Below are positions 37,884-46,051 of a stretch of 64,000 nt of DNA, in pieces. The position numbers and the translations under genes were made by a program. The stretch comes from Bacteroidetes bacterium ADurb.Bin012. GTDB taxonomy: Bacteria; Bacteroidota; Bacteroidia; Bacteroidales; TTA-H9. Numbering within the stretch: position 1 is the first letter of the stretch; each line of letters begins with the position of its first letter. The DNA is taken from positions 1 to 64,000 of the forward strand of contig MWFC01000002.1 of the NCBI GenBank assembly GCA_002071415.1, written 5' to 3'. The notes below the pieces were generated by a model. It was not told the origin of the DNA and made no database searches. It saw nothing but the letters and a program-made list of their open reading frames with translations.

Positions 37884-38366
37884 TTAGAGATTTGCGTATT
37901 CGTTGATGATTCCCTTCACATCTTCGGGAGCTACACGTCCATAAACTTTTTCGCCTATCATGACGACAGGTGCCAGACCGCAGGCTCCCACACATCTGAG
38001 GCAAGACAAAGAAAAGCGACCATCGGGTGTACTTTCGCCCACCTGAATATTCAGTTGTTTGCGAAACTCATCGAGAACCTTCTCTGCCCCTCTCACATAA
38101 CAAGCCGTTCCCAGACATATAGAAATAGAGAACTTCCCCTTGGGTACCATCGAGAAAAACGAATAAAAGGAAACAATACCATACACATGGGCTACCGAGA
38201 CATTCAATTCCTTAGCTACTACTTCCTGTACTTCGGCCGGAAGGTAACCAAAAATTTCCTGAGCCTTGTGTAGAACATTGATGAGTTCACCTTTATCGTT
38301 ATTGAAGGATTTACAGATATTTTTCAGTTGCTGGACTTTCGATTCGGGTAATTTAATGACAGCCAT
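37884..38366 (-). CDS. hydC: NuoE-like [2Fe-2S] subunit of the hydrogenase
   Basis: 160 residues with the thioredoxin-like [2Fe-2S] domain. Ligand pairs are in ICLGTACYVRGAEKVLDEF and LSCLRCVGACGLAPVVMIG. The helical N-terminal part (LINVLHKAQEIFGYLPAEVQ) is standard for 24-kDa subunits. It is the last gene of the operon, 34 bases after hydA. Together with HydB it should pass electrons between NAD(H) and the hydrogenase subunit. Confidence 0.9.
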   Translation of the reverse strand: MAVIKLPESKVQQLKNICKSFNNDKGELINVLHKAQEIFGYLPAEVQEVVAKELNVSVAHVYGIVSFYSFFSMVPKGKFSISICLGTACYVRGAEKVLDEFRKQLNIQVGESTPDGRFSLSCLRCVGACGLAPVVMIGEKVYGRVAPEDVKGIINEYANL

Positions 38367-38400
38367 TTTGTGTAATGTTTTTTAGTGAATAAGAGAATAT

Positions 38401-40170
38401 TTATTCGATCACAATTTGGGTACTTTTATCGAAATACTGCGTATGCAGTAGATGATGCGACATTTCGCTGAGTGGTTGTCCGAGAAATTCCTCATATAAT
38501 TGAATAATATAAGGATTTTCGTGAGATTTACGAAGGGCTTTGTTGCGGTCTTCTTCATAGAGAGCTTTTTGTCTGGCTTTAAGTATTGAAGCATCACCAT
38601 GATGAAGAGGTTGACCACCACCTCCAATACATCCGCCCGGGCAAGCCATGATCTCGATGGCATGATATTGCGACTTACCGTCTCTTACTTCCTCGAGCAG
38701 TTGGCGTGCATTCCCCAATCCATGGGCAATGCCTATACGCAGTTCCAAACCGTCGAAATTCACGGTAGCGGCTCTCACTCCTTCGAGCCCTCTCAGCTCC
38801 TCGAAGTCGACTCTGGGTAAAGGCTTTTTCGTATAAAGTTCATAAGCTGTTCTAACGGCCGCTTCGATCACTCCTCCAGTGGTTCCAAAAATGACTGCAG
38901 CTCCCGTCGATTCCCCCAAAGGACGGTCGAAATCGCTTTCGGGAAGCGAGTTGAAATCAATATTGGCCAGTTTAATGAAATTAGCCAGTTCACGAGTAGA
39001 AAGCGAAAAATCAACATCGGGATTTCCATCGGTCAAAAATTCTGACCTCTGGCATTCATATTTCTTAGCCAAACAAGGCATAATGGATACTACTACCAGA
39101 TTATTACGATCGATGCCCAGTTTTTTGGCGAAATAAGTTTTTGCTATTGAACCAAACATTTGCTGAGGTGAACGTGCCGTGGAAGGAACATCCTTCAATT
39201 CAGGGAAATTATGTTCAAAAAAATTTACCCATGCAGGACAACAAGAAGTAAGTATAGGAAGCCGTACATTTCTGTCGCCTGATAAATATCTGGTGAGACG
39301 GTCGAGGAGCTCACTGCCTTCTTCCATAATCGTAAGATCAGCGGCGAAATCGGTGTCGAAAACATAATCGAATCCTAATTCGCGCAGTGCGGAAACCATT
39401 TTCCCTGTCACCAGGGATCCGGGTTCGAGGCCAAATTCTTCTCCTAAAGCCGCCCTAACAGCCGGAGCAGTTTGTACTATCACAGTTTTGGTTGGATCAG
39501 CCAAAGCCGAAATTACCTGACGGGTGTTGTCCACCTCGGTAAGTGCACCCGTTGGACAAACTGCTACACATTGGCCACAATAGGTACATGGAGATTTTTC
39601 GAGATTCATTTCGAAAGCCGGTGCTACAACTGCCATAAACCCTCTGTTAATGGCCGAAAGGGCACCTACGGTTTGAATATCGTTGCACATCATTTCGCAC
39701 CGTCTGCACAGGATGCATTTATCCACATCGCGAATTATGCTTGGAGATGTATCCTTGCGGTAAGTAGATTGTTCGCCTTGATAGGGAATATCTCGGATTC
39801 CCAAACGATGAGCTAAGCTTTGTAGTTCACAATTGCCCGACTTTGGACAAACCAGACAATCAAAAGGATGGTCGCTGAGGATGAGTTCCATTACGGTACG
39901 GCGAGCATTCAATACGCGAGTGCTGTTGGTTTTGACCACCATACCTTCGGTTACTTCAGTAGCACACGCCGGAGCAAGATTTCTACGGCCCTGAACCTCA
40001 ACCACACAAATACGGCAACCACCTGGTTTGTTTTCGATATTCATTCCCTCCAGATTGAAATAACAAAGTGTTGGGATCTCGATGCCCACTTTTCGGGCAG
40101 CATTCAAAATACTGGTTCCTTTTTCTACCTCGACTGATTTTTTATCTATGGTTAGTTTTACGAGTTCCAT
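38401..40170 (-). CDS. hydA: [FeFe]-hydrogenase catalytic subunit
   Basis: 589 residues. Domains in order: an N-terminal plant-type [2Fe-2S] domain (about 1-80, IPTLCYF and GGCRICVVEV), a His-Cys [4Fe-4S] region (HPFDCLVCPKSGNCELQ), a two-cluster ferredoxin domain (CILCRRCEMMC and CTYCGQCVAVCPTGAL), then the H-cluster domain. The H-cluster motifs are intact: TSCCPAW at 308-314 with the proton-relay Cys, MPCLAKKYE with Cys366, and MACPGGCIGGGGQP with Cys510 and Cys514. It catalyses reversible H2 formation. With NuoE- and NuoF-like partners it fits the multimeric, probably electron-bifurcating group (A3). It has no extra C-terminal [2Fe-2S] domain. No maturases (HydE, HydF, HydG) are in the window. 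Confidence 0.96.
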   Translation of the reverse strand: MELVKLTIDKKSVEVEKGTSILNAARKVGIEIPTLCYFNLEGMNIENKPGGCRICVVEVQGRRNLAPACATEVTEGMVVKTNSTRVLNARRTVMELILSDHPFDCLVCPKSGNCELQSLAHRLGIRDIPYQGEQSTYRKDTSPSIIRDVDKCILCRRCEMMCNDIQTVGALSAINRGFMAVVAPAFEMNLEKSPCTYCGQCVAVCPTGALTEVDNTRQVISALADPTKTVIVQTAPAVRAALGEEFGLEPGSLVTGKMVSALRELGFDYVFDTDFAADLTIMEEGSELLDRLTRYLSGDRNVRLPILTSCCPAWVNFFEHNFPELKDVPSTARSPQQMFGSIAKTYFAKKLGIDRNNLVVVSIMPCLAKKYECQRSEFLTDGNPDVDFSLSTRELANFIKLANIDFNSLPESDFDRPLGESTGAAVIFGTTGGVIEAAVRTAYELYTKKPLPRVDFEELRGLEGVRAATVNFDGLELRIGIAHGLGNARQLLEEVRDGKSQYHAIEIMACPGGCIGGGGQPLHHGDASILKARQKALYEEDRNKALRKSHENPYIIQLYEEFLGQPLSEMSHHLLHTQYFDKSTQIVIE

Positions 40171-40199
40171 GTTTCGAAATTTGTTAAAGATTCAACATT

Positions 40200-41993
40200 T
40201 TATTGAAGTAAAACGGCGTTGAATTTGCACTTTTCCATACAAGTTCCACACTTGATGCAAATTTCCTGATTGATTGTATGAGGCCCCTTACGTTCGCCAG
40301 ATATAGCATTTACGGGACAGGCTCTTGCACACGCCGTACATCCCGTACAGGCTTCAGGATCGATTACATACTTCATGAGGCCCTTGCATGAACTTGCCCT
40401 GCATTTCTTGTCGATTACATGCTCGACGTATTCATCCCAGAAATTGTCGAGGGTAGAAAGTACGGGATTAGGTGAAGTTTGACCCAATCCGCAAAGGGAA
40501 GTATCCTTAATGACTTCGCTGAGATTCTTGAGTTTGGCCAGATCCTCCGTGGTGCCTTCTCCTTTAGTAATCTTATCGAGGATTTCGTATAAGCGTTTAT
40601 TCCCAATTCGACATGGAGAGCATTTCCCACACGACTCATCCACTGTAAATCCAAGATAAAACTTAGCAATGGAAACCATACAATCGTCTTCATCCATTAC
40701 GATCATCCCGCCCGAGCCCATCATCGAGCCGGCAGCCAACAAGTTATCGTAATCGATTGGCGTATCGAGATGACGAGTCGTAAGACAACCTCCTGAAGGA
40801 CCACCCGTCTGGACGGCTTTAAACCCCTTTCCTCCCCTGATGCCTCCACCAATCTTAAAGATTACATCTCGAAGGGTCGTTCCCATGGGAACTTCTATCA
40901 AGCCTACATTATTGATCTTACCGGCAAGTGCAAATACCTTGGTCCCTTTCGATTTTTCCGTTCCAATAGAAGCAAACCATTCAGGCCCTTTATTGATAAT
41001 AACCGGAATGTTGGCGTAAGTTTCTACATTGTTCACATTGCTCGGCTTTCCCAGAAAACCATGTTCAGATGGGAAAGGGGGTTTGAAGGTAGGTTCACCT
41101 CGTTTCCCTTCCATGGAATGAATCAACGCGGTTTCTTCTCCGCAAACAAAAGCTCCAGCCCCATATCTTAATTCTATATCAAAATCGAACCCCGAATTAA
41201 AAATATTTTTACCAAGTAAACCATATTCTTTAGCTTGATTAATAGCTATTCTGAGACGTTTAATGGCCATAGGATATTCTGCACGAATATAAACCAGCCC
41301 TTTGCTGGCGCCTGTACAATACCCATTGATAGCCATGGCTTCGATGACCGAATGAGGATCGCCTTCCAGAATGGAACGATCCATAAATGCACCCGGATCG
41401 CCTTCATCAGCATTACAAATCACATACTTTTGGTCTGATTTTACTTTTGCCGTAATTTCCCATTTCAAACCTGTGGGGAAACCACCACCTCCACGCCCAC
41501 GTAATCCCGACTTCTTAATCATTTCGATGACCTGCTGTGGAGTGTATTCAGTAAGGCACCTGCAAAGAGCTACATACCCATCGCGAGCAATGTATTCGTC
41601 AATATTTTCCGGATCAATAAAACCACAGTTTCGTAAAGCTATCCTTATCTGTTTTTTCTGAAAACCGATCTCTTTGCTACCTGTAGCAAGAAGTTCTTTT
41701 TCAGGTTCAAGATAAAGCAAACGTTCGACCCGACGACCATTTAAAACATGTTCTTTCACAATTTCTTCGGCATCTTCAGGCTTCACGTGAATATAAAAAG
41801 TATTACCGGGAATCACCTTCACAATAGGACCCTTATCGCAGAACCCAAAACAGCCCGTTGACACTACTTTGACTTCATTTTCTAAGCCATTGCGTTCAAG
41901 GGATTCCTCAAGAGCATTTCGTATAGATTCACTCTCCGACGAGCGACATGTTGTCCCTCCGCAAACCAGTAAATGCATTCTGTATTTTGCCAT
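40200..41993 (-). CDS. hydB: NuoF-like flavoprotein subunit of the hydrogenase
   Basis: 597 residues. An N-terminal thioredoxin-like [2Fe-2S] domain (LVCGGTTCRSSES and STGCFGFCDKGPIVKV) is fused to the NuoF core. FMN and NADH sites are in GLRGRGGGGFPTGLKWE and CNADEGDPGAFMDRSILEG, with GAGAFVCGEETALIHSMEG. A [4Fe-4S] site follows (ESCGKCSPCRIGNKRLYE with SLCGLGQTSPNP), then a C-terminal two-cluster ferredoxin (CTGCTACARACPVNAIS; CIKCGTCMEKCKF). It would take up or deliver electrons at NAD and, in bifurcating enzymes, couple NAD(H) and ferredoxin. It lies 25 bases after the ferredoxin-like gene. Confidence 0.95.
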   Translation of the reverse strand: MAKYRMHLLVCGGTTCRSSESESIRNALEESLERNGLENEVKVVSTGCFGFCDKGPIVKVIPGNTFYIHVKPEDAEEIVKEHVLNGRRVERLLYLEPEKELLATGSKEIGFQKKQIRIALRNCGFIDPENIDEYIARDGYVALCRCLTEYTPQQVIEMIKKSGLRGRGGGGFPTGLKWEITAKVKSDQKYVICNADEGDPGAFMDRSILEGDPHSVIEAMAINGYCTGASKGLVYIRAEYPMAIKRLRIAINQAKEYGLLGKNIFNSGFDFDIELRYGAGAFVCGEETALIHSMEGKRGEPTFKPPFPSEHGFLGKPSNVNNVETYANIPVIINKGPEWFASIGTEKSKGTKVFALAGKINNVGLIEVPMGTTLRDVIFKIGGGIRGGKGFKAVQTGGPSGGCLTTRHLDTPIDYDNLLAAGSMMGSGGMIVMDEDDCMVSIAKFYLGFTVDESCGKCSPCRIGNKRLYEILDKITKGEGTTEDLAKLKNLSEVIKDTSLCGLGQTSPNPVLSTLDNFWDEYVEHVIDKKCRASSCKGLMKYVIDPEACTGCTACARACPVNAISGERKGPHTINQEICIKCGTCMEKCKFNAVLLQ

Positions 41994-43778: not shown

Positions 43779-44213
43779 ATGGAATTTGAACAAGATAATG
43801 AGCTAATTGTGATAAGACTCTGGAAGGACGAGGAGATTCTATCGTCCCTGACTGAGTTTTGTAACAGCCACCAAATCAAGGCAGGTTGGATTTCTGGAAT
43901 TGGTGCAGCCGAAAAAATTATTGCAGGTTATTATGATTTTATCAGGAAAGAATATGTTTGGAAAGAATTCGAAGGAGTGCATGAAATTGTCCCCCTAACG
44001 GGAAATATCAGTCAGATAGGGGAAAAGGTGTTTTTGCATTTACACATCAATTTCACCGATCATGACTTAAGCTCTTATGGAGGGCATTTAAAAAGTGCCA
44101 TTGTGAATCCCACCCTCGAAGTAATAGTTTGCAAGCTCACTCGTCCTCTTGTCAGATTCTACGATATAGAAACAGGTTTATACTTGCTAAAATTATCCAA
44201 TAACAATATTTAA
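43779..44213 (+). CDS. PPC (DUF296)-domain protein
   Basis: 144 residues, all one PPC domain. The three putative metal-binding histidines lie in FLHLHINFTDHDLSSYGGHL (HxH, then GGH), and AGWISGIGAAEKIIAGYYD is the conserved first half. In plants this domain is fused to AT-hooks; bacterial stand-alone forms are trimeric and have no settled function. It has no AT-hook or membrane segment. Probably in an operon with the lipoprotein gene. Confidence 0.85.
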   Translation: MEFEQDNELIVIRLWKDEEILSSLTEFCNSHQIKAGWISGIGAAEKIIAGYYDFIRKEYVWKEFEGVHEIVPLTGNISQIGEKVFLHLHINFTDHDLSSYGGHLKSAIVNPTLEVIVCKLTRPLVRFYDIETGLYLLKLSNNNI

Positions 44214-44229
44214 TTTATCGTAAGATGAT

Positions 44230-44263
44230 AAAAACAAACCCCCGAGTTTCGCAACTGGGGGGT
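44230..44263 (-). terminator. Intrinsic terminator of the minus-strand RNA
   Basis: ACCCCC-G-AGTT at 44238-44248 pairs with AACT-GGGGGG-T at 44253-44263 around a TCGC tetraloop. On the minus strand it is followed by TTTGTTTTT. On the plus strand no T-run follows, so the direction is minus. Confidence 0.75.
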
Positions 44264-44438
44264 AGTTAAGTAGTCTTTAACCAAATCCTGTAAGAAAAAA
44301 GTACAGGTATGTATTCCATCCTGATGTGTCTAAATTCCACAACAACGGTTAGTTGTTGTAACCAAAACCATGAGTTCTTTTAACACATCACTTCTTTTGA
44401 GGCAATAACCTCCTTATGGTTTAACAGTGTTTATAAAA
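44230..44438 (-). ncRNA. Probable structured small RNA with its own terminator
   Basis: On the minus strand about 205 bases can fold into a series of helices. They are TGATGTGT/ACACATCA (plus 44322-44329 with 44383-44390) enclosing an 8-bp hairpin ACAACAAC/GTTGTTGT (44339-44346 with 44352-44359), then CCTGTA/TACAGG (44287-44292 with 44302-44307), GTTAA/TTAAC (44265-44281) and a terminal GC-rich hairpin followed by a T-run. A small GAGG/CCTC hairpin (44399-44412) lies near the 5' end. A TATCTTTA -7-like box lies at plus 44445-44452. Both neighbouring genes are on the plus strand, so this is not a leader or 3' end of either. It contains no open frame of note. I do not recognise the family; 6S RNA, tmRNA, RNase P and SRP RNA do not fit by eye. 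Confidence 0.6.
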
Positions 44439-44444
44439 ATATTA

Positions 44445-44684: not shown

Positions 44685-44736
44685 ACCCCGGACGTCGAGT
44701 GCCGCGAGCGAAGCGAGCGGTGTATGGAGACCTCCA
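44685..44736. repeat. GC-rich island with short palindromes
   Basis: In an AT-rich spacer, about 50 bases are strongly GC-rich. They include GCGAGCGAAGCGAGCGG (44703-44719), where CGAGCG and its partial mirror recur, and TGGAG-AC-CTCCA (44725-44736), a small palindrome. It may be a mobile repeat or a protein-binding site. Confidence 0.4.
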
Positions 44737-44801
44737 TTATTTTTGAGATCATATCATAACCCATACCGCGTTCTATGAAAATTTGCTGGAATTTTTTTTG
44801 A

Positions 44802-44809
44802 TATTTTTG
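44802..44809 (+). promoter_or_regulatory. -7 box of the OMPP1 gene
   Basis: TATTTTTG matches TAnnTTTG; a TTTG at 44782-44785 is 16 bases upstream, shorter than the usual 19-21. Transcription would begin near 44816, which rules out the TTG start at 44783 and supports the ATG at 44837. Confidence 0.55.
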
Positions 44810-44836
44810 CCTTCTGATCCATTAATTCCCCTTCGA

Positions 44837-46051
44837 ATGAAAAAATTTAGTCTTCTTTTTATTATCTTAATAACGAGCAGTATAGGCCTGCTTGCAGGCG
44901 GATATCAGGTCAGGTTGCAGGGAGCCCGTCAATCAGGAATGGGCCTTACGGGTACTTCGCTCATCTCAGGGGCAAGCGATATTTTCTATAATCCCGGTAG
45001 TTTAAGTTTTTTATCGAAAAAATTTGAATTTACCGCTGGTACCAATGCCATTTTTTCCAAAATCGAGTTTCGTTCCTTAGAATCAGATTATGTTGCCAAG
45101 ACTAACAATCCTGTGAGTCTGCCATTTTTTTTCTATGGAGCTGGTAAGATTACCGATAAGATAACTGCAGGGTTAGGTATTTATACTCCTTACGGCAGCA
45201 AGACAGACTGGCCTGATGATTGGAGCGGTCGCTTTCTCATTCAAAATATTGCACTGAGCTCCATTTATTTTCAACCTTCTATAAGTTTTCAGATTCTAGA
45301 TAATCTAAGTATTGGCGCTGGCCTGGCCTATGTGATGGGTTCGGTTGACCTGCAGAGAGCACTGCCATATAACGATCGATCATTTGTCAAGCTCAATGGA
45401 AATGCTTCGGCTTTTGGATTTAACATTGGCGTTCTATTCAAGCCTGCAGAATCAATGCATATTGGAATAGATTACCGTTCAAAGATTGAGGTTAAATTGG
45501 ACGATGGCGATGCAAACTTTCGAATACCTGCTTCTCTTGTTTCTATTATCACAATAGAAAATAAATTTTCTTCCTCTCTCCCCCTGCCAGCGAATCTCGA
45601 TTGTGGATTATCATGGCAGATAACACAGAAGTTACTTTTTTCATTCGAAATCAACTGGGTGTTGTGGAATTGTTACGATTCACTGACATTCACTTTTATC
45701 GAAAATGGTGATATGTTGAATAGTATAAATCCCCGTTTATATAGTAATTCAATCATTCCCCGATTTGGATTGGAATATCGGATTCAGCCCAAATTAAAAA
45801 TTCGTACGGGTGCTTATTACGACAATTCTCCAGCCAACGATGAGTACTTTACTCCCGAAACCGTAACACTGAATACTCTTGGATTTACTTTTGGGCTCAG
45901 TTATCATCCAATTGAAAATTTGAATTTTGATTTTTCGTTTGTACAATTAATGGGTATAGAAGGCGAAAAGAAGTATAGTCCGGGTAATTTTGCAGGCAAG
46001 TATCGATCATCGGCCTCTATACCGGGTATAGGAATCTCTTATAGTTTTTAA
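44837..46051 (+). CDS. OMPP1/FadL/TodX-family outer-membrane transport protein
   Basis: 404 residues. Signal peptide: MKKFSLLFIILITSSIGLLA. The mature protein opens GGYQVRLQGARQSGMGLTGT followed by ASDIFYNPGSLSFL, the conserved start of FadL-like proteins (Asn-Pro-Ala/Gly motif). The rest alternates as beta-strands of a barrel and ends PGIGISYSF with a terminal Phe. FadL-type barrels pass hydrophobic compounds such as fatty acids across the outer membrane. The substrate is unknown. A GDSL-type lipoprotein gene begins 18 bases downstream, so the two probably act together. Confidence 0.9.
   Translation: MKKFSLLFIILITSSIGLLAGGYQVRLQGARQSGMGLTGTSLISGASDIFYNPGSLSFLSKKFEFTAGTNAIFSKIEFRSLESDYVAKTNNPVSLPFFFYGAGKITDKITAGLGIYTPYGSKTDWPDDWSGRFLIQNIALSSIYFQPSISFQILDNLSIGAGLAYVMGSVDLQRALPYNDRSFVKLNGNASAFGFNIGVLFKPAESMHIGIDYRSKIEVKLDDGDANFRIPASLVSIITIENKFSSSLPLPANLDCGLSWQITQKLLFSFEINWVLWNCYDSLTFTFIENGDMLNSINPRLYSNSIIPRFGLEYRIQPKLKIRTGAYYDNSPANDEYFTPETVTLNTLGFTFGLSYHPIENLNFDFSFVQLMGIEGEKKYSPGNFAGKYRSSASIPGIGISYSF

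Follow-up and report, generated by a model that had tools for sequence, protein, structure and literature searches.

A conserved small RNA gene of a new family in uncultured Bacteroidales and its possible action at mRNA start codons

The window, i.e., the whole stretch of 64,000 nucleotides analyzed in this study, belongs to contig C2 of a genome of 2.64 Mb that is 97.7% complete. At approximately 44230–44400 its minus strand carries a small RNA gene with a length, predicted from the sequence, of ~165–170 nt. It is flanked by a gene for a PCC-domain protein (43779–44213) and a gene for a FadL-type outer membrane protein (44783–46051). Both neighbors are located on the plus strand, in agreement with the first-pass annotation, which had described a stand-alone minus-strand RNA of unrecognized family between two plus-strand genes. 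We are highly confident that this is a real, conserved and previously undescribed small RNA gene; its features are collected in Table 1. A GC-rich block (CCGGACGTCGAGTGCCGCGAGCGAAGCGAGCGGTGTATGGAG), part of which is strongly palindromic and which is present as a single copy in the window, lies on the plus strand at 44688–44729 within an otherwise AT-rich intergenic stretch of 300 bp. The minus strand at 37884–41993 encodes a set of genes that resemble, by eye from their translations, NuoE/NuoF-type and iron-only-hydrogenase-like genes, suggesting an anaerobic fermenter as far as these translations can be read.

Table 1. Coordinates of the small RNA gene and its elements in the window.
Feature	Position	Strand	Basis or remark
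Small RNA gene (conserved unit)	44230..44402	-	5' end approximate, 44389-44402; identity to sister species 94% vs 56-61% in flanks
Putative promoter position	44403..44440	-	Aligned to TTAAACCTTTTNGTACCTTTGC with TAnnTTTG box of the second genus
Helix P1, 5' arm (GAUGUGUU)	44382..44389	-	Pairs in 4/4 homologs
Helix P1, 3' arm (GACACAUC)	44323..44330	-	Pairs in 4/4 homologs
Hairpin P2, 5' arm (ACAACAAC)	44352..44359	-	Homolog comparison
Hairpin P2, 3' arm (GUUGUUGU)	44339..44346	-	Homolog comparison
Hairpin P3, 5' arm (CCUGUA)	44302..44307	-	Homolog comparison
Hairpin P3, 3' arm (UACAGG)	44287..44292	-	Homolog comparison
Intrinsic terminator (ACCCCC/GGGGGU hairpin and UUUGUUUUU)	44230..44263	-	Sequence; kept in homologs
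Most conserved segment (CUCAUGGUUUUGGUUAC), proposed start-codon seed	44358..44374	-	One variable base among 4 homologs; 15-nt complement at a start codon
Second conserved segment (AGGAUUUGGUUAAA)	44276..44289	-	Identical in 4/4 homologs

A blastn search of 149 related genomes retrieved three true homologs, one in a genome of the same genus (G001, 90% identity) and two in a second genus of the same family (G004 and G007, 73–74%), while the remaining matches, with E above 0.002, were short and chance-like. The RNA is thus present in four genomes from two genera of one uncultured Bacteroidales family and occupies two genomic positions that are unrelated to each other. In the second genus it is located between genes for an S9-type peptidase and an NTPase-like protein, as named by eye from the translations. 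Because this second genus carries the RNA at a different locus, it is neither a leader nor a 3'UTR of the window neighbors. The first-pass annotation had already argued against a leader from the opposite strand of the neighbors; indeed, the adjacent downstream genes lie on the plus strand, and in both the window and the second genus the RNA is a stand-alone unit without a tie to a same-strand neighbor, next to different genes.

Sequence conservation is, among the sequence-derived indications, the strongest evidence for an RNA gene. Between the window genome (G000) and G001 the RNA is 94% identical, compared to 56% for the 3' flank, 61% for the promoter region and 60% further upstream; the neighboring PCC gene shows 74% identity overall and 58% at third codon positions. 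The same contrast is seen between G004 and G007, with 97% for the RNA, 88% for the promoter and 52–60% for the other flanks, whereas third codon positions of the neighboring peptidase gene share 48% identity. Within-genus identities of 94–97% against 48–58% at the third codon positions of neighbors are indicative of a strongly constrained gene that is missed by annotation based on known RNA families. The boundaries are equally sharp: in the G000/G001 comparison, identity rises to 10/10 where the T-run ends (44230) and drops beyond 44389. The 5' end had initially been placed at 44438, yet the conserved unit stops near 44389–44402, so positions 44403–44438 fall outside the conserved RNA.

A covariance model (R1) built from the four homologs scores 186.5 bits in the window and 162–195 bits in the relatives, all of them members of the training set. 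In a search of the 149 genomes it found only these four true matches at 162–195 bits, followed by a next best match of 30 bits; the four are true by construction, and the informative part is their gap to the rest. The top ones among these other matches, at 30 bits or less, were inspected; some fall within protein-coding sequence, and none has the conserved segments together. With laxer filters, the five other genomes of the family gave nothing above 20.3 bits and nothing credible, although R1 rests on effectively two lineages and more diverged copies could be missed. Among 296 relatives, a pattern search returned four exact matches, and one-mismatch matches lacked other support; no copy was found in viral contigs (exact patterns), phages or plasmids. 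An intergenic stretch from a different family of the order (L119:1501-1662, minus strand) has GAUUUGGUUAAUA and then a CCCCCGG/CCGGGGG terminator at its end and scores 29 bits to R1; this likeness, limited to the 3' end of the RNA, is probably due to chance.

The search against Rfam that the first-pass annotation had proposed has been performed, and no family reached its gathering score in the window; with permissive filters the best sub-threshold match had an E value of 0.52. One further sub-threshold match, to cow-rumen-4 (E 3.6), was discarded: it rests on the stretch CAUAAGGAGG, located outside the conserved unit.

The direction of transcription, which had been set by the T-run, is upheld by the presence of this T-run after the GC-rich hairpin on the minus strand and, in addition, by the promoter position in the relatives. 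In the second genus, TTAAACCTTTTNGTACCTTTGC with the Bacteroidetes −7 box TAnnTTTG, a motif known from published Bacteroidetes promoter work, is found just upstream of the RNA. The corresponding place in the window reads TTAAACCATAAGGAGGTTATTGCC and has a degenerate −7 box; a TTAAACC motif is located at 44420–44426. The combination of TTAAAC with a −7 box occurs nowhere else in the window, which leaves alignment as the only basis for judging the promoter. The AAGGAGG motif, initially noted as exposed near the 5' end, lies inside this putative promoter position (44409–44415, minus strand), upstream of the conserved RNA, and none of the three relatives carries it; a function of this motif is not supported. 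A role in ribosome binding is further disfavored because Bacteroidetes mRNAs lack Shine-Dalgarno sequences, at least in what one report describes (PMC6847099).

With respect to structure, the minus strand between 44225 and 44440 folds at −56.6 kcal/mol compared to −44.6 ± 4.2 kcal/mol in dinucleotide shuffles (z −2.8; 0/200 as good). The complementary plus strand folds equally well (z −2.8), and fold energy alone therefore does not fix the strand. The predicted fold reproduces the long stem enclosing a perfect 8-bp hairpin that had been noticed at first sight (GAUGUGUU/GACACAUC around ACAACAAC/GUUGUUGU), as well as the GC-rich 3' hairpin followed by UUUGUUUUU. Three helices and the terminator stem are kept across the four homologs with a few compensatory changes. 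Helix P1 comprises 7–8 bp in each homolog, with an innermost pair that is U-G in G000, G-C in the second genus and absent in G001. Hairpin P2 varies from 8 bp in the window to 7 bp in G001 and 4 bp in both G004 and G007, while P3 counts 6–7 bp in each homolog and shows G-C/G-U and A-U/U-A exchanges; P3 was compared between the genera by hand since MAFFT mis-registers it. The terminator consists of a hairpin of 6–9 bp and a T-run in each of the four. When the hand-corrected alignment of the four homologs was compared to column shuffles keeping gap and identity patterns, its fold had a z-score of −3.1 (2/500 as good), reduced to −2.0 (20/500) without the terminator; the complement of the alignment gave −4.3, and the strand is thus not settled by the alignment fold either. 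The expectation that the stems would be conserved in relatives is consequently borne out for the main stems, but compensatory changes are few. The core structure is plausible and, apart from the terminator, modestly supported by these predictions.

The best-conserved parts of the RNA among the four homologs are CUCAUGGUUUUGGUYAC, ACACAUCAGGAUGGAA and AGGAUUUGGUUAAA. The second conserved segment of Table 1 resembles the first (GGAUUUGGUUA vs. GGUUUUGGUUA), and the first, when reverse-complemented, looks like the start region of a Bacteroidetes gene (ACCAAAACC-ATG). Within this first segment, CUCAUGGUUUUGGUU complements, without mismatch over 15 nt, the region around the start codon of a giant gene of the window genome. 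This genome contains ACCAAAACCATG twice, once within the small RNA gene and once precisely on the start codon of the giant gene (around C14:45116), where the match reads AACCAAAACCATGAG. The gene copy in the window genome runs off the end of contig C14; its ortholog in G001 (L220:314-12562, plus strand, on G001:C97) encodes a protein of 4083 amino acids that contains PKD repeats as well as a CHU_C type IX secretion signal at its C terminus, shares 67% identity over the N-terminal 57 residues and keeps 14 nt of the match. By chance, ~0.019 perfect 15-nt matches would be expected between all 15-mers of the RNA and the start regions of ~2400 genes, a figure that depends on a Markov model of start regions from the window and on an assumed gene number and 20-position search interval. 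The target was identified after the fact, and the match is suggestive at the level of sequence. In the second genus there is no 12-nt start-codon match despite conservation of the segment, and the giant gene can therefore not account for the conservation across genera. We thus regard the mRNA of the giant protein as a tentative and rather doubtful target in the window genus.

Taken together, the family is new but of a familiar kind, most likely a base-pairing small RNA. We propose that it acts in trans as an antisense regulator directed at start codons, a reading to which we assign a probability of roughly 55%. Transcribed from its own promoter position up to the intrinsic terminator, a stand-alone RNA of ~165–170 nt would carry the CUCAUGGUUUUGGUU segment on a scaffold formed by P1/P2, P3 and the terminator. 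This segment would anneal around the start codon of an mRNA and block ribosome entry, with the mRNA of the giant PKD-repeat, type IX-secreted protein as the best candidate in the window genus. An RbpB-type RRM-domain protein, encoded at C1:17002-17211 in the window genome, could serve as RNA-binding partner; all nine genomes of the family have a gene for an RRM_1 protein. The proposed seed is predicted to be only 34–45% unpaired.

It is conceivable, though unlikely, that the RNA acts via a protein instead, with GGUUUUGGUYA and GGAUUUGGUUA as binding sites through which an RNA-binding protein such as RRM_1 is titrated or scaffolded. Conservation across the four homologs peaks in these two similar segments, every homolog genome encodes an RRM_1 protein, and the second segment, when searched as an mRNA seed (TTTAACCAAATCCT), matches no credible start codon. 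However, the five family genomes where the RNA was not found encode RRM_1 just as well, and each RNA has only two copies of the segment, both predicted to be about half paired. A related notion, that the duplicated GGWUUUGGUYA segments of an undescribed RNA family bind an RRM protein or RNA polymerase and make the RNA a global regulator, appears quite improbable to us.

We consider it very unlikely that the RNA is a strongly diverged 6S-type RNA binding RNA polymerase. 6S RNA (RF00013) is likewise stand-alone and of similar length. Covariance models of neither RF00013 nor Bacteroidales-1 RNA (RF01693) had a match in the window or in the nine family genomes (G000–G008), implying that 6S may be unrecognized there; a real 6S may, on the other hand, simply escape the Rfam models. 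The predicted folds of three homologs do not form the rod with a central bubble closed by both ends that typifies 6S; instead of a long end-to-end stem, a short multi-helix fold with a terminator is predicted, and searches of five of the nine family genomes did not recover the RNA.

A short translated leader or peptide gene (ATG GTT TTG GTT ACA ACA ACT ...) has hardly any probability left. An AUG with an open frame is indeed present in the conserved segment of all four sequences, but the predicted peptides, of 13, 10 and 29 amino acids, are wholly different after the fifth or sixth residue, the nucleotides remain conserved past this divergence, and no same-strand gene follows downstream; the diverging frames led us to reject it. 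Non-functional intergenic DNA with a chance fold, which the moderate z-scores of similar size on both strands would allow, can practically be dismissed, since in two independent genome pairs, and at two loci unrelated to each other, conservation far exceeds that of the flanks.

Our preferred reading of a start-codon-directed regulator can be placed next to the systems described so far. The biology of small RNAs in Bacteroidales rests on few Bacteroides examples, GibS and FopS among them. With its concrete predicted target, a family conserved in a distant, uncultured lineage offers a test case for the question whether start-codon control of surface proteins by small RNAs extends across the order. 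Bacteroidales-1 RNA, found in other families of the order, is likewise a structured Bacteroidales RNA (~180 nt), but differs by eye in both sequence and fold.

GibS of Bacteroides thetaiotaomicron is the closest in its organization: like the window RNA, it is an intergenic, conserved single-copy Bacteroidales small RNA with its own promoter, putative in the case of the window RNA, and an intrinsic terminator, and it has been shown experimentally to act on translation initiation regions, the type of pairing proposed here for the window RNA (PMC7366714). The published description of GibS also sets it apart, since its seed is single-stranded and located at the 5' end with hairpins following, whereas the proposed seed of the window RNA lies within a stem-enclosed loop; the promoter motif (PM2) differs as well. 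FopS RNAs, reported to be deposited in Rfam, block surface-protein mRNAs, namely those of SusC homologs, close to the start codon together with the RRM-1 protein RbpB in B. thetaiotaomicron (PMC11697453). They are multicopy, ~65–70 nt long and open at their 5' end, whereas the window RNA is single-copy, ~165–170 nt long and more structured. The likeness lies in the proposed target, a surface-type secreted protein with whose mRNA the window RNA would pair, and in the presence of an RRM_1 protein.
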